In this document: in pieces, positions 4,135 to 45,972 of the stretch | Numbering within the stretch: position 1 is the first letter of the stretch | Layout of the letters: each line of letters opens with the position of its first letter | Assembly (NCBI GenBank): GCA_902564245.1 | Contig: CACFAF010000008.1 | Span: forward strand, 1-45,972 | DNA length: 45,972 bases | Direction of reading: 5' to 3' | From: an uncultured Pelagibacteraceae bacterium | Lineage (GTDB): Bacteria; Pseudomonadota; Alphaproteobacteria; Pelagibacterales; Pelagibacteraceae | Program-made: the position numbers and the translations under genes | The notes under the pieces: model-generated | Databases searched by the model: none | Told to the model about the DNA's origin: nothing | What the model saw: the letters and a program-made list of their open reading frames with translations, nothing else

Positions 4135-5247
4135 TACCGAGGAGGCTTCATCAGAAGATGAAGTTTTTGATCTGATTTTAGTTAAAGTCTCCTCACAATC
4201 ATTAATTTGTTTTTTCATTAATTCTGGATTTTTTAAAAAGTAGACAACTGAATTGAAAATCTCTTTAGGATTGCACTCTTTTTGTATTAATTCTGGAATT
4301 ATTTCTTTGTTATTTATAATATTGATAATGTTAGCAAATTTGATTTTAACTAACATTTTAACAATCCAAAAATTTAAAAAATTCATTTTATAGATAATTA
4401 TAGAGGGAACTTTTGCATTACAGATTTCAAGAGAAACTGTACCAGATTTAGAAACTGCAAAAGTAGATTTATTGAGTATTTGTTTTTTTATATTTTCATC
4501 AGAAATAACTTCGACATTTTTTAAATTTACGTTATTGATTTTTTCGCTAATTAAATTCTTATTTTCATCGGTTGCATGAAATACAAAGGTTAAATTATCA
4601 AATTTTGCATTCATCAAATTTATAAAATCTATTAAGATAGGCAAAAGTAAATTTACCTCGGATGATCTACTACCAGAAAAAAGAGAAATAATTTTTTTAT
4701 CATTTGATATGATACTAGACAGATCTATCTTATCTTTAGTTTCATGTTCTAATAATGGATGTCCAACAAAAGTATTGGGAATATTTTCTTTATCAAAATA
4801 CTTTTTTTCAAAATCAAATAATAATAAAATATGATCTAAGAATTTTTTAAACTTTTTTACTCTACCCTCTCGCCAAACCCATACTTGTGGAGCCACATAA
4901 TGAACTGTCTTAATCCCACTATTTAACTTTTTAACTTTTTCAGCAACTCTTAATGTAAAATCGGGACTATCTACACTAAATAAAATATCTGGGTTAAATT
5001 TTATTATCTCTTCTACAGTTTTATTTATTCTACTCTTTATTTTAAAAATATTAAATAAAACACTAGTGAATCCAATGTAGGTAATTTCTTTAAGATCAAA
5101 AATAGATTTTATTCCTAAGGAATTTAAATGTGTTCCGCCAACACAAGAATACTCAATATTAGGATTATTTTTTTTGAGTTTAGATATAACTTTGGAGGCA
5201 AGTTTATCTCCAGAGGGTTCGCCTGTTAATATAAAAATCTTTTTCAT
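4111..5247 (-). CDS. lpxB: Lipid-A-disaccharide synthase
   Basis: The 378-residue GT19 glycosyltransferase joins UDP-2,3-diacylglucosamine and lipid X to make the lipid A disaccharide at the inner face of the cytoplasmic membrane. Family motifs seen are TGEPSGDK at residues 8-15, VDSPDFTLRVA, HYVAPQVWVWREGR, VGHPLLEHE, the nucleotide-binding LFSGSRSSEV and KSGTVSLEI. It is the last gene of the lpx run, with its start overlapping the lpxI stop by 4 nt. Its 3' end overlaps gltX by 24 nt on the opposite strand, and the gltX terminator lies within it, which constrains this part of the protein. No terminator serving lpxB itself was found. Confidence 0.95.
   Translation of the reverse strand: MKKIFILTGEPSGDKLASKVISKLKKNNPNIEYSCVGGTHLNSLGIKSIFDLKEITYIGFTSVLFNIFKIKSRINKTVEEIIKFNPDILFSVDSPDFTLRVAEKVKKLNSGIKTVHYVAPQVWVWREGRVKKFKKFLDHILLLFDFEKKYFDKENIPNTFVGHPLLEHETKDKIDLSSIISNDKKIISLFSGSRSSEVNLLLPILIDFINLMNAKFDNLTFVFHATDENKNLISEKINNVNLKNVEVISDENIKKQILNKSTFAVSKSGTVSLEICNAKVPSIIIYKMNFLNFWIVKMLVKIKFANIINIINNKEIIPELIQKECNPKEIFNSVVYFLKNPELMKKQINDCEETLTKIRSKTSSSDEASSVLTKFLIG
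4146..4168 (+). terminator. Intrinsic terminator of gltX inside the lpxB reading frame
   Basis: A perfect 7-bp stem, CTTCATC at 4146-4152 and GATGAAG at 4157-4163, closes an AGAA tetraloop and is followed by TTTTT at 4164-4168. It begins 12 nt after the gltX stop, in the correct orientation to end plus-strand transcription. The same bases encode a Ser/Asp/Glu-rich stretch near the LpxB C-terminus, so one sequence serves as protein code on one strand and terminator on the other. Confidence 0.8.
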
Positions 5248-6038
5248 CTTACAACGATAAACATTTTGTTTTTATTGGCAAATTGAATGCAACTTTTTTT
5301 ATCTAAAAAAACGTGTTGTTTACTTTTTATAACAATACCTTTTAATCCTACAGTCTTACTTTGTTTTATAGTTTTCAATCCAATTGTTGGAAGATCTACT
5401 CTTAAATCTTGTTTTTTTTTAGGAAACTTAACTAAAACTCCATGATTTTTAAATTTTTTGCTTCTGCTTTTTTCAAGCATTTTTTTGGTTCCACCTTTAC
5501 CTTCTATAGAAACTACTTTTTTATTTCTAACTACAACACCTTGGCTAAAATTATATTCTCTTAAACTGTTTAAAGTTTTAATTGCTTTTTTAATATCTAA
5601 TTGGTCTTGTTTGTTTGGTTTAAATTTTGAATAATTGCCTTTTTTTAATGAAAGTTCAGGATTAAATTTAAGTGAATTTTCAGTTTTGATCTTGTTATGA
5701 GCCAATATCTTAATGATTTCTTTAAGTATTGCTGCATCACCAAGCTTCGATGCTTTGATAATCCTTGGAATATAATAAATACCTTTGAAGTCTAGTTTAA
5801 GTTTAGAAAAGTTTGGTTTATTTACCTTTCCTGCAAATAAGACTTTTTTACAATTATTTTCCCTTAGAATGTTAATGATTTTACCAAATTGACCTATGGA
5901 AACTGAATAAGATTTTCTATCTTGTTTAAATTTCTTTGATTTTGATAAATCAATTATTAAATATTTTATTTTTCTTTTTTTGACAGTTTTAAGAATTTCC
6001 TTTGGAAAATCGGTATCACCAAAAATTAATCCTATCAT
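5244..6038 (-). CDS. lpxI: UDP-2,3-diacylglucosamine pyrophosphatase, LpxI type (DUF1009)
   Basis: The 264-residue protein fits the LpxI/DUF1009 family, which in alphaproteobacteria replaces the unrelated LpxH and hydrolyses UDP-2,3-diacylglucosamine to lipid X and UMP. The N-terminus begins with the typical GLIFGDTDFP, the middle has KLGDAAILKEI, and the C-terminal half carries EGKGGTKKML, a basic VLVKFPKKKQDLRVDLPTIG segment and a GIVIKS block. It sits between lpxA (1 nt upstream) and lpxB (4-nt overlap), exactly where the enzyme is needed in the pathway. The protein is lysine-rich. The assignment relies on both motif pattern and position. Confidence 0.9.
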   Translation of the reverse strand: MIGLIFGDTDFPKEILKTVKKRKIKYLIIDLSKSKKFKQDRKSYSVSIGQFGKIINILRENNCKKVLFAGKVNKPNFSKLKLDFKGIYYIPRIIKASKLGDAAILKEIIKILAHNKIKTENSLKFNPELSLKKGNYSKFKPNKQDQLDIKKAIKTLNSLREYNFSQGVVVRNKKVVSIEGKGGTKKMLEKSRSKKFKNHGVLVKFPKKKQDLRVDLPTIGLKTIKQSKTVGLKGIVIKSKQHVFLDKKSCIQFANKNKMFIVVR

Positions 6039-6039
6039 T

Positions 6040-6816
6040 TTACGAAAATGGTGTGCAAATAGATCTTTTTTTATCTTTTGTTATAAAATCAATTACATTT
6101 TTTACTAATGGATTTTCTTGAAAAGAGCCATTTAATTTATTTATATTTTCATTAATATTTTTAGTAGCAAAAATCTCTTTATAAGCTTCACTCAGGCCTA
6201 ATATATCCTTATTTTCGAACTTAGCTCTTCTTAAACCTATTAAGTTTAATCCTTGTAATGAGTTTCTATTTCCAGTTGACAATCCATAAGGAATTACGTC
6301 ATGCAAAACACCTGTCATTCCACCAATCATTGCCATTTTTCCAATTCTAGTGAATTGTTGAACTGCAGAGTTTCCTCCGATTACAACATTATCTTCGATA
6401 ATTGCGTGACCACCTAAAGGAACATTGTTAGCAATTATTACATTATTTCCTACCTGACAATCGTGAGCGATATGAGATGAAATCATAAATAAACAGTTAT
6501 TTCCAATAATTGTTTTGCCACCACCACCAACTGTTCCTGGATTTATTGTTACGTACTCTCTGATTTTATTATTATCTCCAATTATCAAATTAGTTGGTTC
6601 TCCAGCATATTTTAAATCTTGTGGGTCGTTAATAGAAACAAAGGGGTATATCTTATTCCCTTTACCAATTTTAACATTTCCAGAAATATTTACATGTGAT
6701 TGAATAACAGTGTTTTCTCCAATCTCAACATTAGGGCCTATTACACAATAAGGACCTACTTGAACATTTTTTTCTAATTTTGCTTTTGAATCTATGATTG
6801 CAGTTTTATCTATCAT
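6040..6816 (-). CDS. lpxA: UDP-N-acetylglucosamine acyltransferase
   Basis: LpxA adds the first 3-hydroxyacyl chain to UDP-GlcNAc and so opens lipid A synthesis. The 258-residue protein has the left-handed beta-helix hexapeptide pattern (repeats such as IGENTV, IGKGNK, VGNNVI) over most of its length, and a C-terminal helical part. SSHIAHDC at 113-120 holds the conserved His pair; His118 aligns with catalytic His125 of E. coli LpxA. INDPQDLKYAGEPT is the substrate-binding loop. The first codons overlap the lpxD stop by 4 nt, and lpxI follows after 1 nt. Confidence 0.96.
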   Translation of the reverse strand: MIDKTAIIDSKAKLEKNVQVGPYCVIGPNVEIGENTVIQSHVNISGNVKIGKGNKIYPFVSINDPQDLKYAGEPTNLIIGDNNKIREYVTINPGTVGGGGKTIIGNNCLFMISSHIAHDCQVGNNVIIANNVPLGGHAIIEDNVVIGGNSAVQQFTRIGKMAMIGGMTGVLHDVIPYGLSTGNRNSLQGLNLIGLRRAKFENKDILGLSEAYKEIFATKNINENINKLNGSFQENPLVKNVIDFITKDKKRSICTPFS

Positions 6817-39114: not shown

Positions 39115-39483
39115 TTACTCCCAATCTAAAGCACCCTTCTTCCATTCATAGACAAATCCAACAGTAAGAATAAATAAAAAAATCATCATTGAACAAAACC
39201 CAAACAAACCAATATTGCCTAGAGAAATTGCCCAAGGAAATAGAAAAGCAATCTCTAAATCAAATATTATAAATAATATTGCTACCAAGTAAAATCTGAC
39301 ATCAAATTCCATTCTTGAGTCTTCAAATGGTTCAAAGCCACACTCGTAAGCTGAAAGTTTTTCAGGATCAGGATTTTTAGGAGATAAAATAAAATTAATC
39401 ATTATAAAAGCTAAACTTAAAGTCAAAGCAATTATTAGGAATAAAATAATTGGCAGGTAATCTTTTAAAAAATCGTGTAGCAT
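39115..39483 (-). CDS. nuoA: NADH-quinone oxidoreductase subunit A
   Basis: The 122-residue protein has three membrane helices (about 9-33, 63-85, 92-113). The loop with [20 protein letters not shown] contains the conserved Cys and acidic residues linking it to NuoB, NuoD and NuoH, and [20 protein letters not shown] is the second helix. It is the first gene of the complete 14-gene complex I operon. Confidence 0.97.
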
Positions 39484-39556
39484 AATTAACTATTATATAT
39501 AATCTTTTTAATTAAAAGAAAGTGCAGTAAAAGTCACATTATGCAGTTATCTTTGG
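39484..39556 (-). promoter_or_regulatory. Intergenic region before nuoA with a possible -10 box
   Basis: This 73-nt gap is the only space where the nuo operon could have its own promoter. TATAAT (39492-39497, minus strand) is a perfect -10 hexamer, but no good -35 sits 16-18 nt upstream. A start 6-7 nt after it would leave a leader of only a few bases, so the nuoA mRNA could be nearly leaderless. No terminator for the glycosyltransferase gene was found here, so readthrough from the upstream pair is possible. Confidence 0.35.
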
Positions 39557-40669
39557 TTATTTGCTTAATATTTTGTTTGTTAATGACAAATATTTTGAAA
39601 TTTGCTCTTTGGCTAAAAAACGATGAAGATAATATTTAATTTTTTTAACTTTTTTTAAACTATTGTTATAATTTTTAATTGAGTCTATCATTTTTTTTGA
39701 CAATAAATTATAATCATAGGTATTTGAAAAAGTTCCATATTTATTTGTCAAAATATCTTCGGCACCACTACATTTTGAACTTATACAAGGTAATTCATTA
39801 TTCACTGAGTCAATTAAAGCATTAGGTAAACCTTCATACAAGGATGGAAAAACAAAAAGTTTTGAATTTTCATAATAATAATTTGGGTTGGTTAGCCAAC
39901 CTTTAAATTCAACTTTATTCATTATTTTTAAGTTATTACAAACATTTGCTAGTTTTACTTTATCTGCTCCATGACCGATTAAAACAAGTTTGTAATCTGG
40001 GTATTTTTTTAAAAAAATACTAAATGCTTTTATTAATAATTCCTGATTTTTTTGCTTACAAAGTCTTCCTACTGATAAAATTATATTTTTTCTTTTCTTT
40101 GATTTGATTTTTTTAATTTTTATTAGATAAGGATTATAAATCAAATCTATTTTTTTTTTATAAAAAGTTATCTTTTGTAACGAATTTTTTGCTTTTTTAG
40201 AATTTGTTATGATTGCATCACTTAAAAAATAAAAAATTGTTTTAAGAAACATTACTAAATATGCGAATATTTTGTAATCAGCATATTTTGTAGCTCCTAA
40301 AACATCTTCTGAATTTCTAATAATGATTTTTCTTCCAAAAATTTTACATATAAATATCGAAACAATATGACTCTGAAAAGATACAATAATTGAATTTTTA
40401 GATCCAATTTTGTTAAATATTTTTATCATATTGTATATTGAGAGAAGTGATGTAATGAGCCTGTTAGAAATAAGTTTAAATGAAAAATTACTTATTTTAT
40501 AAAGATTAATCTGTTTAGAAAAAAAATTTCTCTTATCTTTATTATTTATATTTGAAATTAAATAAACATTATTTCTTTTTGAGCTTAAATTTGCAAAATT
40601 AATTAAATTAATTGTGGCACCTCCTTTTTCAAAGGATGGATAATATATAATAATATCTTTTTTAATCAT
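39557..40669 (-). CDS. Glycosyltransferase, GT4-like (GT-B fold)
   Basis: The 370-residue protein resembles GT4 glycosyltransferases of cell-surface polysaccharide synthesis. FEKGGATINLINFA near the start is the acceptor-domain glycine loop; IILSVGRLCKQKNQELLIKA (197-216) and FVFPSLYEGLPNALIDSV are the donor-domain motifs. The usual E-x7-E pair is Glu279 and Asp287, so the second acidic residue is Asp. Asn and Lys content is very high, more so than in neighbouring core genes. It overlaps the methyltransferase gene by 4 nt, suggesting that both modify one glycan. Donor and acceptor cannot be told. Its end lies 73 nt before nuoA. Confidence 0.85.
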   Translation of the reverse strand: MIKKDIIIYYPSFEKGGATINLINFANLSSKRNNVYLISNINNKDKRNFFSKQINLYKISNFSFKLISNRLITSLLSIYNMIKIFNKIGSKNSIIVSFQSHIVSIFICKIFGRKIIIRNSEDVLGATKYADYKIFAYLVMFLKTIFYFLSDAIITNSKKAKNSLQKITFYKKKIDLIYNPYLIKIKKIKSKKRKNIILSVGRLCKQKNQELLIKAFSIFLKKYPDYKLVLIGHGADKVKLANVCNNLKIMNKVEFKGWLTNPNYYYENSKLFVFPSLYEGLPNALIDSVNNELPCISSKCSGAEDILTNKYGTFSNTYDYNLLSKKMIDSIKNYNNSLKKVKKIKYYLHRFLAKEQISKYLSLTNKILSK

Positions 40670-41499
40670 TTAAATCTTTTTGAAATATCTTTTCTAATAA
40701 AAACAAAATTTGAAAGATGATATATGTTGCTCTCCGGACGCATTGGATCTACTTCAATTAGTTTATTACCATTAGGCAAAATTTGAAAAACATCTGAAAA
40801 AGGAATAAGTTTTGAAAAACTATACAATGTTTGCTTTTTTATCATTTGATGCCAATTAAACTCTATTTGTATAAATTTAGGTTTATATTTTGACAAAATT
40901 TTTTGAGCTCCTAATAAAACTTCGTATTCATAACCTTCTGTATCTATTTTAATTAAATCTATATTTTTTACAGATAAAATTTCCTCATAATCATCTAATT
41001 TTTTAACTTCAATTAGCATACTATGCTTATTATAATCCCTAACAAATGATAAACCTTCTAAGTTTTTTAAAAAAGAAGCTTTTTCTGAAGTTTCATCTCC
41101 ATAATTAATTTCTAAATTTGTATTTTTATCTCCTAAACCTATATTAAAAATTTTCAATCTGTCACTAAACTTTTCTTTAATAGTTTTTAACTTTTCAAAC
41201 GCTTTAGGTAATGGTTCAAAAGAAAATATGGTAGAATCTGTTTCTCTGAGTAAAAGTTTTGTATAATTTCCTATATTGGCCCCAACATCTATTGAAAATT
41301 TAATTTCTTTATTGATTAATTTTATAAATGCTTTTTCACCTGTCTTATTAAAATCACCGTAATTTTTATAACCTTTTGCATTTAATGATAAAGACAAAAT
41401 AATATCATTATAAAATTGCATGCTTTTTCTTCCAAAAATAAAAATATAAAAATTAGAAATCAGTTTATAGATTTTCACAATAAATTTTTTTAAAAACAT
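40666..41499 (-). CDS. FkbM-family SAM-dependent methyltransferase
   Basis: The 277-residue protein has the FkbM layout. FSIDVGANIGNYTKLL (68-83) is the SAM-binding motif I, FSFEPLPKAFEKL (93-105) includes the acidic residue that binds the SAM ribose, and DLIKIDTEGYEYEVLLGA (181-198) is the FkbM signature. FkbM enzymes typically O-methylate sugars or polyketides; next to a GT4-like glycosyltransferase, sugar methylation of a surface glycan is the best guess. A hydrophobic N-terminal segment (about 13-23) might associate it with the membrane. A good promoter lies 34 nt upstream, so the pair has its own start. Confidence 0.85.
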   Translation of the reverse strand: MFLKKFIVKIYKLISNFYIFIFGRKSMQFYNDIILSLSLNAKGYKNYGDFNKTGEKAFIKLINKEIKFSIDVGANIGNYTKLLLRETDSTIFSFEPLPKAFEKLKTIKEKFSDRLKIFNIGLGDKNTNLEINYGDETSEKASFLKNLEGLSFVRDYNKHSMLIEVKKLDDYEEILSVKNIDLIKIDTEGYEYEVLLGAQKILSKYKPKFIQIEFNWHQMIKKQTLYSFSKLIPFSDVFQILPNGNKLIEVDPMRPESNIYHLSNFVFIRKDISKRFK

Positions 41500-41532
41500 T
41501 GAAATTATTTATTCTAATTTATTAAATATTTA

Positions 41533-41561
41533 ATAATAAGTTTTTTTTAATTAACTCACAA
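41533..41561 (-). promoter_or_regulatory. Sigma-70-like promoter of the methyltransferase-glycosyltransferase pair
   Basis: On the minus strand TTGTGA (41556-41561) and TATTAT (41533-41538) are separated by exactly 17 nt; they match the -35 consensus at four and the -10 consensus at five of six positions. A start near 41526 would give a leader of about 27 nt. The -35 begins 4 nt after the tRNA-Asp CCA end, so it sits immediately beside the tRNA gene. Confidence 0.6.
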
Positions 41562-41565
41562 TTTA

Positions 41566-41642
41566 TGGCGGGAGTGAAGGGACTCGAACCCTCGACCTAT
41601 CGCGTGACAGGCGATCGCTCTAACCAACTGAGCTACACCCCC
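41566..41642 (-). tRNA. tRNA-Asp (GTC)
   Basis: This 77-nt gene has an encoded CCA end (41566-41568). The acceptor stem is GGGGGTG with CACTCCC (one G-U pair), the D arm is TAGCTCAGTTGGTTAGAGC, and the anticodon stem-loop ATCGC-CTGTCAC-GCGAT carries anticodon GTC. The T arm has the standard GGTTCGAGTCC. The discriminator base is G, as in tRNA-Asp. It lies 8 nt after tRNA-Val and is probably cut from the same transcript. A run of nine C residues (41638-41646, plus strand) spans its 5' end. Confidence 0.96.
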
Positions 41643-41650
41643 CCCCTATT

Positions 41651-41726
41651 TGGTGGGCAGTAAAGGACTCGAACCTTTGACCCCCTCGGTGTAAACGAGA
41701 TGCTCTACCAACTGAGCTAACCGCCC
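41651..41726 (-). tRNA. tRNA-Val (TAC)
   Basis: This 76-nt gene has an encoded CCA end (41651-41653). The acceptor stem is GGGCGGT with ACTGCCC (one G-U pair), the D arm is TAGCTCAGTTGGTAGAGC, and the anticodon stem-loop TCTCG-TTTACAC-CGAGG has anticodon TAC. The T arm has GGTTCGAGTCC and the discriminator base is A. It is the first of two tandem tRNA genes between lon and the methyltransferase gene. Confidence 0.96.
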
Positions 41727-41740
41727 AAAGTCAGGGTACT

Positions 41741-41767
41741 ATTACATCAACGCAAAGTTAATGTAAA
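41741..41767 (-). promoter_or_regulatory. Hairpin and possible tRNA promoter after lon
   Basis: A 10-bp stem with one G-U pair (41742-41751 with 41757-41766, 5-nt loop) begins 8 nt after the lon stop. No T-run follows, so it is not a standard intrinsic terminator; it could protect the lon mRNA 3' end or guide separation from the tRNAs. The same bases contain TTTACA (41762-41767) and TGTAAT (41741-41746) in promoter orientation, each five of six to consensus but only 15 nt apart. The two readings cannot be separated by eye. Confidence 0.4.
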
Positions 41768-41774
41768 TTACTAA

Positions 41775-44162
41775 TTATTGAATACTGGCTTGAGATTTAT
41801 CTTCTTTTTTAGTTTTTGAAATATTTTCTACTTCAGTCCACTCTACTCTTTTTAATTCTTTTGTTAAAGCAATCTTTAAAACTTCATCAACAGTTTCTAC
41901 TGGAGTTATTTTTATATCTTCTTTGACTTTTTTTGGAATATCAACTAAATCTTTTTCATTATCTTTTGGAATAATTACATGTTTAATTCCTGCTCTATGT
42001 GCTGCCAATAATTTTTCTTTCAACCCACCTATAGGCAAAACTTGACCTGTAATAGTCACTTCACCAGTCATAGCAATTTCTCTATTAATAGGATTGTTTG
42101 TAATAGATGAAACAATTGATGTAACCATGCCTATTCCTGCAGAAGGTCCATCTTTTGGAGTAGCACCTTCGGGTACATGAATATGAAAATCTTTTTTTTC
42201 AAATAATGGAGGTATAATCCCATATTCCAAACTTTTTGATCTTACAAATGATTTTGCTGCTTTTACAGACTCCTGCATGACATCCCCTAATTTTCCTGTA
42301 ATTTGCATTCTGCCTTTACCTGGCATATTTACTGTTTCTATTTTTAAAATTTCCCCTCCAAACTCAGTCCAAGCTAAACCAGTTACTATCCCAACTTTAT
42401 CTTTATCTTCTAATTCACCATATTTAAATTTCTTAACCCCTAAGAAATCAGGCAGGTTTTTCTTATCAATTGAAACTTTTTTTTCCTCACCATTAACTAC
42501 TTTTTTAACGACTTTTCTAGTTACTTTGGATATTTCTCTTTCAAGATTTCTAACCCCAGACTCTCTTGTATAATTTCTAATTATCTCCTTGATGGTTCCA
42601 TCAGATAATTCAAATTCTCCCTTTTTAACACCATTTTCCCTAATTTGTTTTGGTAATAAATATTTATTAGCAATGTTTATTTTTTCATCTTCTGTGTATC
42701 CAGGTATTCTTATTACTTCCATTCTATCTAATAGAGGAGGTAATATATTTAGAGTATTTGCTGTCGTAACAAACATAACATCTGAAAGATCATAATCTAC
42801 TTCAAGATAATGATCATTAAAAGTTGCATTTTGTTCTGGATCAAGTGCTTCTAATAAAGCTGAAGATGGATCTCCACGATAATCATTTCCTATTTTATCA
42901 ATTTCATCAAGTAATATTAAAGGGTTTTTAGTTCCTGCTTTTTTCATCATTTGTATAATCTTACCAGGAAGAGATCCTATGTAAGTTCTTCTGTGACCTC
43001 TAATCTCAGCTTCATCTCTAACACCACCCAAAGACATTCTAACGAATTGTCTATTTGTTGCTTTTGCAATAGATTTTCCTAGAGAAGTTTTTCCTACACC
43101 TGGTGGTCCTATTAAACATAAAATTGGTCCTTTGATTTTTTCCATTCTTTTCTGAACAGCCAAGAATTCAATTATTCTTTCTTTAACTTTTTGCAAGCCA
43201 AAGTGATCATCATCCAAAGTTTTTAATGCTTTATTTAAATCAATATCAACTTTATCTTTTTTAAACCAAGGTATATCAATCATCCAATCAAGGTAATTTC
43301 TTACTACAGTAGCTTCTGCAGACATTGGGCTCATATTTTTTAATTTTTTAAGTTCGGTCATACATTTTTTGTGAACTTCCTTAGGCATTTTCGCTTTTGC
43401 TATTGCTTTATTTAAACTTGAAGTTTCATCTTTTCCATCTTCTATTTCACCAAGTTCTTTCTGGATAGCTTTGAGTTGTTCGTTTAAATAGTATTCTCTT
43501 TGTGTCTTTTCCATTTGTGTCTTAACTCTGCCTCTAATTCTTTTTTCAACACCAATAATACTGGTTTCATTTTCCATAATTTTGATAATTGCATTTAATC
43601 GTTTCTTGATATCTGCTGTTTCAAAAATTTGTTGTTTTTCTGAGATTGTGGAATTTAAGTGTGATGCTATATTATCGGCTATCTTGGTTGGCTCTTTTAA
43701 TTTCTTAATACTATTAATTGTTTCATTTGAAATTTTTTTATTTATTGAAGTAAGTTTTTCTAATCTTCTTACAGCTGTCAACGCTAGTGGTAATAAATCT
43801 TCATCACTTTCTACAACATCATTATGATAAGAGAAATCACATGAAATAAATTTTTCATTATCAAAAAAATCTAAAATTTTTACTCTTTTGATGCCTTCGA
43901 CAAGCACTTTAACTGTTCCATCAGGTAACTTTAAAAGTTGTAAAATATTACCTTCACAACCATACATAAAAATATCTGTTTTTTTTGGATCATCTACCTC
44001 AGAATTTTTTTGTGTTACCAATATTATTTTTTTGTCAGTTTTCATTACTTCATTAAGCGCTGAAATTGACTTGTCTCTTCCTACAAATAATGGAATTACC
44101 ATACTTGGAAATACAACAATATCTCGAAGTGGTAGTAGTGGTAAATTAATTTTAACGTCCAT
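41775..44162 (-). CDS. lon: ATP-dependent protease Lon
   Basis: The 795-residue protein has the complete LonA layout: N-terminal substrate domain opening LPLLPLRDIVVFPSMV, central coiled coil, AAA+ domain with Walker A GPPGVGKT (352-359) and Walker B LILLDE (415-420), and a C-terminal protease domain with catalytic Ser674 (GPSAG) and Lys717 (GGLKEKLLA). The AAA block RGHRRTYIGSLPG is intact. Lon degrades misfolded and regulatory proteins. It follows clpX after 62 nt, the conserved clpP-clpX-lon order. The C-terminal tail after about residue 775 is charged and variable. Confidence 0.97.
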   Translation of the reverse strand: MDVKINLPLLPLRDIVVFPSMVIPLFVGRDKSISALNEVMKTDKKIILVTQKNSEVDDPKKTDIFMYGCEGNILQLLKLPDGTVKVLVEGIKRVKILDFFDNEKFISCDFSYHNDVVESDEDLLPLALTAVRRLEKLTSINKKISNETINSIKKLKEPTKIADNIASHLNSTISEKQQIFETADIKKRLNAIIKIMENETSIIGVEKRIRGRVKTQMEKTQREYYLNEQLKAIQKELGEIEDGKDETSSLNKAIAKAKMPKEVHKKCMTELKKLKNMSPMSAEATVVRNYLDWMIDIPWFKKDKVDIDLNKALKTLDDDHFGLQKVKERIIEFLAVQKRMEKIKGPILCLIGPPGVGKTSLGKSIAKATNRQFVRMSLGGVRDEAEIRGHRRTYIGSLPGKIIQMMKKAGTKNPLILLDEIDKIGNDYRGDPSSALLEALDPEQNATFNDHYLEVDYDLSDVMFVTTANTLNILPPLLDRMEVIRIPGYTEDEKINIANKYLLPKQIRENGVKKGEFELSDGTIKEIIRNYTRESGVRNLEREISKVTRKVVKKVVNGEEKKVSIDKKNLPDFLGVKKFKYGELEDKDKVGIVTGLAWTEFGGEILKIETVNMPGKGRMQITGKLGDVMQESVKAAKSFVRSKSLEYGIIPPLFEKKDFHIHVPEGATPKDGPSAGIGMVTSIVSSITNNPINREIAMTGEVTITGQVLPIGGLKEKLLAAHRAGIKHVIIPKDNEKDLVDIPKKVKEDIKITPVETVDEVLKIALTKELKRVEWTEVENISKTKKEDKSQASIQ

Positions 44163-44180
44163 ATGTCAAATATGGAGATT

Positions 44181-44208
44181 AATAATTATTTTGCAATAGA
44201 TAATTATT
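44181..44208. repeat. AT-only inverted repeat between clpX and lon
   Basis: AATAATTAT (44181-44189) and ATAATTATT (44200-44208) form a perfect 9-bp inverted repeat around a 10-nt spacer, in the 62-nt gap 19 nt upstream of the lon start. It could be a protein-binding palindrome or a weak RNA hairpin. With no G or C in the stem, chance is a serious alternative. No clear promoter was recognised in the gap. Confidence 0.3.
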
Positions 44209-44224
44209 GTTTATTAACGTAGTA

Positions 44225-45493
44225 TTAGGCCGCAGTTGTCTTTTCGTTCTTTGTCTTGTTATTATTCTTTGAGTGAACCAAAATTGGTTGTGATTGACCA
44301 TTTACTGCACTAGAATCTATAATAACTTCATCTACATTTTCTTCTGTCGGCAAATCATACATTGTTTTTAACAAAATATTTTCAAGAATAGACCTTAATC
44401 CTCTTGCTCCTGTTTTTTTATTAATTGCTTTTATTGCTATTTCTTTTACAGCATTATCTTTAAAAGTAAGTTTAGCCCCTTCTAATTTAAATAATTCTTG
44501 GTATTGTTTAATTAAAGAATTTTTTGGCTCTTTAAGAATTTTTACCAAAGATTTTTCATCTAAATCTTCAAGTGTAGCTATAATTGGTAATCTACCAATA
44601 AATTCTGGAATTAATCCATATTTTAATAAATCTTCTGGTTCTAAATTTTTCATCCATTCGCCAGTTTTTTTATCTTCTGTATTTTTTACTTCAGCTCCAA
44701 AACCAATTGAAGTACCTTTGTCCCTTTGTGAGATAATTTTATCTAATCCAGCAAATGCTCCTCCACATATAAATAATATATTAGTAGTGTCAACTTGAAG
44801 AAATTCTTGTTGTGGATGTTTTCTTCCTCCTTGAGGTGGAACACTTGCAATTGTGCCTTCCATAATTTTTAGTAAAGCTTGTTGAACACCTTCACCTGAA
44901 ACGTCTCGAGTTATTGAAGGATTTTCAGATTTTCTACTTATCTTATCAACCTCATCTATATAAACTATACCTCTTTGAGCTTTTTCAACATTATAATCAG
45001 CTGATTGTAATAATTTTAAAATTATATTTTCTACATCCTCACCTACATAACCTGCTTCTGTTAATGTAGTTGCATCCGCCATAGTGAAAGGAACATCTAA
45101 AATTCTAGCAAGCGTTTGAGCTAATAATGTCTTTCCACATCCAGTAGGACCTACTAATAAAATATTTGATTTTGCTAGTTCTACAGTTTTGCTGGTTTTA
45201 TTTTCATAATTTAATCTCTTATAATGATTATGTACTGCAACCGACAAAACTTTTTTTGCATGATTTTGTCCTATAACATAATCATCTAGTACTGCACATA
45301 TTTCTTTAGGAGATGGTAATCCATCTTGGTGTTTAACTAGAGTATCTTTACTTTCTTCTTTAATAATATCCATACACAACTCAACACACTCATCGCAAAT
45401 GAATACTGTTGGTCCAGCAATAAGTTTTCTTACCTCATGTTGGCTTTTGCCACAAAAAGAGCAGTACAGAATATTTTTATTACTAGTTGTCAT
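44225..45493 (-). CDS. clpX: ClpXP protease ATP-binding subunit ClpX
   Basis: The 422-residue unfoldase has the N-terminal zinc-binding domain (Cys11, Cys14, Cys33, Cys36), Walker A GPTGCGKT (115-122), Walker [10 protein letters not shown], and SIGFGAEV, the IGF loop that docks to Clp[13 protein letters not shown] and TGARGLRSI are the sensor regions. It unfolds tagged substrates and feeds them to ClpP, encoded 92 nt upstream. The last residues are a charged Lys/Asn/Thr tail. Confidence 0.97.
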
Positions 45494-45568
45494 ATATTTT
45501 TTTATAACGAATCACTTTATTTACTTTATTACAAAAAAGTCCTGCTAATCAAGTCTGGGTTGTGAACA

Positions 45569-45587
45569 AAACTACATATTGTAGTTT
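45569..45587 (-). terminator. Possible weak terminator at the clpP end
   Basis: In minus-strand RNA a 7-bp stem (AAACTAC/GUAGUUU, 5-nt loop) overlaps the clpP stop codon and is followed by UGUUC; counting stem bases, the U-rich tract is UUUUGUU. The stem has only two G-C pairs, so termination would be partial at best and clpX is probably also transcribed by readthrough. The rest of the 92-nt clpP-clpX gap shows no convincing promoter. Confidence 0.35.
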
Positions 45588-45972
45588 AATTTCTTTTTTC
45601 AACTACTTGATCAACTAAACCAAAGTTTTTTGCATTTTCTGGAGTCATAAAATTATCTCTTTCAAGAGCAACTTTTATATCATCTACTGATTGACCTGTA
45701 TGCTTTGAATAAATTTCATTAAGTCTTTTTTTTAGAGATAAAACTTCATTTGCATGGATTTCTATATCAGTTGCTTGACCTTGAAAACCAGCAGATGGTT
45801 GGTGAACCATTATCCTGGAATTAGGTAAAGAAAATCTTTTTCCTTTTTGTCCTGCTGCTAGTAAAAATGAACCCATAGATGCAGCTTGGCCAATACATAA
45901 TGTTGAAACTTCTGGTTTAATGTATTGCATAGTATCATAAATTCCAAGTCCAGCTGTAACTAAACCACCAGG
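45586..45972 (-). CDS. clpP: ATP-dependent Clp protease proteolytic subunit, 3' part
   Basis: The reading frame is open from the window edge: codon 1 visible is CCT at 45970-45972 and the first residues are [20 protein letters not shown], the conserved SPGGxVxAGxxIYDTMQ block, so the gene continues beyond the window. The 129 visible residues include the catalytic Ser in GQAASMGS and His in [10 protein letters not shown]; the Asp lies in the ERDNFM region. ClpP is the serine protease chamber fed by ClpX. The internal ATG at 45930 is a codon within the gene and not its start. Confidence 0.95.

Follow-up and report, generated by a model that had tools for sequence, protein, structure and literature searches.

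A two-gene FkbM-glycosyltransferase cassette at a tRNA-bordered junction in Pelagibacteraceae: rare, apparently old and present on either side of two tandem tRNA genes

Introduction

SAR11 cells dominate the surface ocean, come under heavy phage attack and have tiny genomes. In one genome of the family, that of an uncultured Pelagibacteraceae bacterium, two genes of apparent surface-glycan type lie between tandem tRNA genes and the nuo genes, and the locus raises the question of how they came to be there: as a foreign insertion at a tRNA 3′ end, as an earlier sequence-only reading of this DNA had it, or as long-standing residents that most relatives have lost.

Results

A gene pair between tRNA-Asp and nuoA

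The stretch of DNA analysed here (the window) is 45,972 nucleotides long and is one contig (C8) of a 1.02-Mb, 38-contig genome that is 86.8% complete and that its best named relatives place in SAR11/Pelagibacter. On its minus strand, the gene order is lon, tRNA-Val, tRNA-Asp, FkbM, GT4 and nuoA, with the following features:

41775-44162, minus strand: lon, conserved flank (PF05362, 3.3e-93)
41651-41726, minus strand: tRNA-Val(TAC), putative attachment gene of a second, busier slot on the lon side (ARAGORN)
41566-41642, minus strand: tRNA-Asp(GTC), whose CCA end borders the slot (ARAGORN)
41500-41565, minus strand: leader of 66 nt from the tRNA-Asp 3′ end to the FkbM start, with a putative promoter-like site (sequence)
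40666-41499, minus strand: FkbM-family methyltransferase, 277 aa, first gene of the pair (ORF, PF05050, TIGR01444)
39557-40669, minus strand: GT4-type glycosyltransferase (GT), 370 aa, second gene (ORF, PF00534, structure match 6eji)
39484-39556, minus strand: spacer running from the GT stop codon up to nuoA; it retains TGTGAC, the nuo upstream element, at 39534-39539 (junction comparison)
39115-39483, minus strand: nuoA, conserved flank (PF00507, 7.3e-42)

ORFs, ARAGORN and Pfam agree with the sequence-only reading that an FkbM and a GT4 gene, overlapping by 4 nt (ATGA), lie between tRNA-Asp and nuoA. Upstream of tRNA-Val come lon and then clpX, and the ORF at 45586-45930 is presumably clpP; the slot on the lon side is empty in the window, with 51 nt between tRNA-Val and lon. 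The first protein passes the cut-offs of PF05050 (E = 8.1e-20; 72.1 bits, cut-off 22.7) and TIGR01444 (91.2 bits, cut-off 37.7), and the second that of PF00534 (E = 6e-31; 107.7 bits, cut-off 26.4). Aligned at full length, three homologous pairs show no large gaps, the identities to the window copy being 61% and 55% (FkbM) and 59% and 54% (GT). The FkbM residues D71-G73-A74-N75-G77, E95-P96 and K184-I185-D186, which we take to be the SAM site, are unchanged across the three homologues. The solved structure closest to the GT is 6eji, "WlaC protein" (E = 1.5e-22, residues 12-369); FkbM matches only 2py6, and weakly.

Composition and borders of the insert

The pair had been described as poorer in G and C than its neighbours, and its GC is indeed low (0.208 in GT and 0.224 in FkbM, the third and seventh lowest among 43 window ORFs). 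Against the same 43 ORFs, GC3 is ordinary (z −0.24 and −0.39), as is codon usage, with deviation ranks of 29 for GT and 27 for FkbM, and the residues K, I, N, F and Y together make up 52% of GT and 46% of FkbM compared with 38% in the window. The low GC is thus explained by the amino-acid make-up of the two proteins, and we rejected it as a sign of foreign origin because synonymous composition is not atypical. The leader contains a promoter-like site, TTGTGA-17-TATTAT (41561 to 41533; 9 of 12 positions matched), that begins 4 nt from tRNA-Asp, exactly where a promoter belonging to the pair had been proposed. Sites of this quality number 20 in the region and 17.4 (sd 4.6) in shuffles, so that the position is as claimed but the match is at chance level, and a promoter of its own was dropped from our account of the cassette.

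The insert abuts the 3′ (CCA) end of tRNA-Asp, as is typical of tRNA islands, and this position is one reason to consider a recent capture, in which the two genes would be what remains of a phage or island that entered this lineage by integrating at the 3′ end of tRNA-Asp. At the window junction, however, the far border of the insert bears no direct repeat of the tRNA end, and a search of positions 39115-45972 with profiles of both tRNAs (nhmmer --max) found no remnant of tRNA-Val or tRNA-Asp, including around 39500-39560, where fragments of the tRNA-Asp 3′ end had been thought worth looking for. The cassette consists of two genes only, with no integrase or tyrosine recombinase, and the assembly's single integrase-family match (PF00589) sits on another contig; the earlier observation that neither an integrase nor a tRNA-end repeat accompanies the pair therefore stands.

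The slot is empty in most relatives

We compared the junction with 141 other loci of the genus, 64 taken upstream of nuoA and 77 other, disjoint ones centred on tRNA-Val. The second fetch comprised 80 loci, including two from another genus, with no nuoA within reach, and one from a third genus, in which the slot is empty (147 nt). The distance from tRNA-Asp to nuoA is 65-228 nt, that is, the slot is empty, in 139 of the 141 genus loci, and the remaining two (L061 and L068) hold the FkbM-GT pair in the same order and with the same 4-nt overlap as in the window; no other cargo was seen in this slot across the 141. The junction is thus variable. Close relatives of the FkbM protein (E ≤ 1e-20) number five in 397 genomes of the family, the window's own included. 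Homologous pairs also occupy the slot in L096/L106, L102 and L108, and divergent copies are found at other places in genomes G477 and G457, one of them with a stop codon. Junction comparison places the insert of the occupied copies between the CCA end of tRNA-Asp and the conserved nuo upstream element, so that nuo retains its own upstream region; GTGAC of this element is found in 138 of the 141 genus loci, L061 having GTGG.

The tRNA-Asp/nuoA spacer of relatives (e.g., L018, L031, L069 and L071) also contains a palindrome, GATAATNATTATC, which we take to be Fur-box-like. It scores 11-12 of 12 in 51 of the 141 genus loci and in 2 of 141 mononucleotide shuffles and, to judge from its sequence, may place nuo under iron control.

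Cassette trees follow those of the linked nuo genes

When the genome_contigs collection, which covers 84,980 species, was scanned with the FkbM alignment, 15 loci came up; 10 (L099-L108) are from Pelagibacteraceae or close to it, and the others are distant (36-42%). The carriers are deeply diverged from one another, at 54-66% identity. Four supported splits (L106/L107, L106-L108, L100/L103 and L101/L102) are common to the FkbM, GT and nuoABCD trees, and the GT tree additionally has a four-row clade with support 88/90. Distances correlate with those of nuo in Mantel tests (r = 0.94 over 9 taxa for FkbM and 0.96 over 8 taxa for GT, P = 0.0001 for both; P = 0.064 for FkbM with one row per close clade, 6 taxa), and the median rate ratio to nuo is 4.0 for FkbM and 4.3 for GT. 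As an unlinked marker, rpoB was usable for five carriers at the tRNA pair, namely the window (WIN) and the hosts of L100, L105, L106 and L107; the hosts of L099, L101 and L103 gave none and that of L108 only a fragment, and the rpoB of G529, the host record of L102, was set aside as a contaminant because of its terminal branch of 3.8, far from all others. In the rpoB tree, WIN groups with the host of L105, and the hosts of L106 and L107 group together, without conflict with the cassette trees.

In seven pair comparisons, dN/dS for FkbM and GT is 0.12-0.23, with no stop codons in the genes compared, and that for nuoB and nuoD is 0.02-0.05; both cassette genes are under purifying selection, less constrained than nuo. 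On the strength of the trees and dN/dS values, we read the cassette as an old resident, selected and often lost. A recent foreign origin is not supported by these results: GC3 and codons are ordinary, the trees track nuo, rpoB raises no conflict and no tRNA repeat is present. Of the two signs that together would have refuted the earlier reading, trees that match the core genome are seen, and presence at this place in nearly all relatives, with 2 of 141 loci occupied, is not.

Several points count against old residence. A presence of ∼1-2% needs many losses if inheritance is vertical, local recombinational gain being the alternative, and the well-supported congruence is with the linked nuo genes, which recombination in the flanks would also carry along. 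The weaker Mantel result over 6 taxa, the five carriers covered by rpoB and the divergent copies elsewhere in G477 and G457 count on the same side. Recombination in SAR11 is described as very high (PMC7542561), and since nuo is linked, the pair could also have spread among Pelagibacter populations by homologous recombination across the conserved lon and nuo flanks, in which case the junction would be a swap locus and the agreement with the nuo tree a product of hitch-hiking. Such allelic replacement fits the patchy presence of the pair, as well as the existence of carriers whose close kin are empty (for example, G009 beside L106/L107 and G042 beside L100), but it sits less well with the unlinked rpoB gene, which does not conflict with the split between {L106, L107} and {WIN, L100, L105}, and with the deep divergence of the carriers. 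We consider it possible, if on balance doubtful, as the main route.

The pair lies on different sides of the tRNA genes in different genomes

In L100 and L103, the two genes stand across the tRNA pair from the window position, before tRNA-Val, and L105 has FkbM alone at that place, directly after lon; all three copies fall within the same FkbM tree as those on the tRNA-Asp side. L099 reads lon, TPR, an extra and decayed tRNA-Val copy, FkbM, GT, tRNA-Val, tRNA-Asp and nuoA, an order that was read across GT from two halves because the contig has an inverted chimeric join inside that gene. Its sister in the lon tree, L054, reads lon, TPR, tRNA-Val, tRNA-Asp and nuoA, with a single tRNA-Val and no cassette. 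The 60 nt upstream of the L054 tRNA-Val are identical at 56 of 60 positions to those upstream of the decayed L099 copy and agree with those upstream of the second L099 copy in only 31 of 63 columns, whereas the tRNA-Val gene itself is identical to that second copy. Both arrangements would be accounted for if two tRNA-Val copies recombined, with loss or gain of the cassette; what is seen is a static difference between genomes that implies no direction.

Other rearrangements were noted in passing. The tRNA-Asp/tRNA-Val pair is duplicated in tandem in L035. An FkbM-GT pair lies beside tRNA-Met in L183, next to transaldolase and pnt genes, and in L181 GT and FkbM homologues at the tRNA-Met site are separated by transaldolase.

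The lon side is a hotspot with phage-type scars

The gap between lon and tRNA-Val exceeds 800 nt in 23 of the 121 genus loci that have both genes in reach, and 17 further loci (L019, L025, L040 and 14 of the second set) carry accessory ORFs there with no lon in the fetched stretch. Cargo on this side includes glycan genes (another FkbM in L400, WavE in L380, and those of L365 and L035), an acyltransferase (L072) and a trypsin-like protein (L060). In L050, L060, L340, L341 and L342, the insert is bordered towards lon by the first 38-40 nt of a tRNA-Val and is followed by a whole tRNA-Val. The tRNA-Val half pattern as such occurs in 280 of the 397 family genomes, and 7 have it twice. In L340, a 137-aa ORF (L340:7221-7634) lies beside the half tRNA-Val, with a run of small ORFs after it. 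Over 122 aa, it shares 78% and 70% of its residues with the starts of 318-aa (L225) and 317-aa (L214) ORFs of tyrosine-recombinase type, which directly follow the same tRNA-Val half in viral contigs. Most of the top matches of the L225 protein in phage records are named integrase or site-specific recombinase (31-33%). The 137-aa ORF itself had no match in Pfam, no named PHROG and none in the viral-contig pattern scan, and its only matches in the PDB, entries named SAKe, were taken as chance, the question being settled by the comparison with L214 and L225. L340 thus holds the truncated start of an integrase, perhaps as part of a decayed phage satellite. The lon/tRNA-Val side is a hotspot with phage-type scars, in the form of tRNA-Val half-repeats and a truncated integrase.

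Several further features of this side were observed. An island of ∼10 kb recurs between lon and tRNA-Val (L018, L021, L343, L345 and others); we take its genes to encode a TRAP-type transporter, an aminotransferase and an oxidase, and the family of its 390-aa gene on the tRNA side counts 17 members among the ORFs of this gap. L341:5691-11549 holds the type I restriction-modification genes hsdM, hsdS and hsdR between the tRNA-Val half and the whole tRNA-Val. The whole tRNA-Val genes of L050 and L060 have a different type of upstream promoter, carried by 39 of the 121 loci, and a conserved 39-aa ORF of small membrane type (C-end NNWRGGF) lies between lon and tRNA-Val in 19 of the 121, among them L017, L020, L031, L034, L042 and L045.

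tRNA pieces in viral contigs and in a sister family

Viral contigs carry pieces of both tRNAs. The tRNA-Val half was found outside a whole tRNA in 20 of 44 viral-contig stretches. For the tRNA-Asp 3′ end, 112 stretches were found, and of the 80 matches examined 41 lie outside a whole tRNA (L250 and L293 included). In L250, a marine viral contig, 45 nt are exactly the tRNA-Asp 3′ half of a sister family; its 443-aa protein has weak matches only in phage records. Within that sister family, L079 (oriented 4445-6287) has a single 505-aa ORF, weakly ceramidase-like, whose far side is marked by 36 nt of a tRNA-Asp 3′ end; its kin L093 lacks this ORF and has an empty site. The tRNA pair is thus a docking site for phages or elements in relatives, in line with the earlier suggestion that these tRNA genes serve as integration points.

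We also considered the cassette as phage-carried and rejected this: viral contigs yield distant FkbM matches only (≤35% identity, 50 loci), apart from one 46-residue stretch at 41%, and among 50,697 phage records just 2 gave FkbM matches, which cover half the length at 31%. Recent capture at the tRNA-Asp end can draw on L250 and on the L079/L093 comparison, as well as on the position of the insert; the missing far-end repeat, the lone integrase-family gene on another contig of this 87% complete genome, the ordinary GC3 and codons, and the related pairs with matching trees in other lineages make it improbable for the window copy.

A more tentative proposal is that the junction is docked on from two sides, phage-type integrases using the anticodon loop of tRNA-Val and, in the sister family, the 3′ half of tRNA-Asp, and that the duplicated tRNA pieces so produced would become homology handles by which cassettes lacking an integrase, such as FkbM-GT, could disappear, return or move across the tRNA pair. 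If so, the glycan pair would be a long-term resident that travels with the tRNA genes and not with a mobile element.

Predicted function of the pair

The pairing of a GT4 with an FkbM protein, together with WavE, epimerase, DegT and other LPS-type genes in neighbouring slots at this junction in kin, leads us to infer that the two genes tailor a surface glycan. Most probably, the GT4 enzyme transfers a sugar onto a surface glycan of LPS or O-chain type, and FkbM, as its family assignment would have it, may O-methylate a sugar of that glycan; this could cap or disguise the surface and so alter phage binding. Other substrates are conceivable, as the best curated matches of the GT are the protein-glycosylation enzymes PglH and PglJ and its closest structure is WlaC, and the pair might then modify a glycolipid, a polymer that the cell secretes or a glycan attached to protein. 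Those matches are far below the NCBIfam equivalog cut-offs (86 bits against 600 for PglH and 84 against 500 for PglJ), the GT4 family is broad, and the neighbouring slots hold LPS-type genes, and we regard a non-LPS target as rather unlikely. Serratia clones evolved under prophage activation are reported to carry mutations in glycosyltransferases, pglJ among them, and in an FkbM gene, and the authors consider that these likely confer phage resistance (PMC12505973); as far as that report goes, genes of the FkbM and GT types matter to phages, which says nothing of the present pair.

Discussion

Our preferred answer, to which we give a probability of roughly 0.6, is that the two genes are an old, fast-evolving and often-lost surface-glycan operon that has been inherited mostly vertically and under selection, with copies of the tRNA genes as recombination handles. 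They would form a small operon that has long resided at this Pelagibacter locus, in the accessory slot bounded by tRNA-Asp and the promoter region of nuo, and that evolves at about four times the rate of the linked nuo proteins. Purifying selection would have acted wherever the operon is present, and most lineages would have lost it. Recombination between tRNA copies could remove the pair or move it across the tRNA pair, and it may plausibly have first arrived there through phage-type integration.

A small glycan cassette that is on or off in one conserved junction would give a simple readout of the surface types coexisting in a population. Its neighbour is a slot that carries phage scars, defence genes and other glycan genes, and the junction is also a place to test the control of phage adsorption. 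It further suggests a way in which cargo that has no mobile element of its own can stay at tRNA genes and move about them. Among the titles and abstracts searched, a scope that leaves most subscription journals outside, none concerns this FkbM-GT cassette.

Several known systems resemble the locus in part. The tRNA-flanked flexible islands described for streamlined marine and freshwater bacteria likewise place accessory genes at a tRNA between conserved blocks (PMC10872708), and the repeats of the last 20 bp of tRNA-Lys reported there for an additive island of Methylophilaceae have a parallel in the tRNA-end repeats in kin of our locus. Relative to the islands in that account, the present cassette has only two genes, lacks a repeat or integrase at the window copy, is congruent with linked host genes and occurs on both sides of the tRNA pair. 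Strain-variable surface-glycan genes also make up HVR2, the SAR11 lipopolysaccharide island reported between the 23S and 5S rRNA genes (PMC2217521); that island is 48 kb long, whereas the cassette has two genes and lies at the lon-tRNA-nuo junction. A SAR11 prophage is reported in tRNA-Val of SAG-MED28 (PMC7542561), the attachment gene proposed here for the lon side; the window contains no prophage, and its cassette is on the tRNA-Asp side. GT4 enzymes of the PglH/WlaC type (6eji) share full-length homology with the window GT, which falls well short of the PglH equivalog cut-off and is partnered by an FkbM methyltransferase, and tycheposons, which are tRNA-bordered elements with cargo, differ from the cassette in that it has no tyrosine recombinase. 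As a glycan cassette in a tRNA-bordered slot, the pair is thus of an ordinary kind; its history, apparently old, rare and played out on both sides of a tRNA pair, is unusual.
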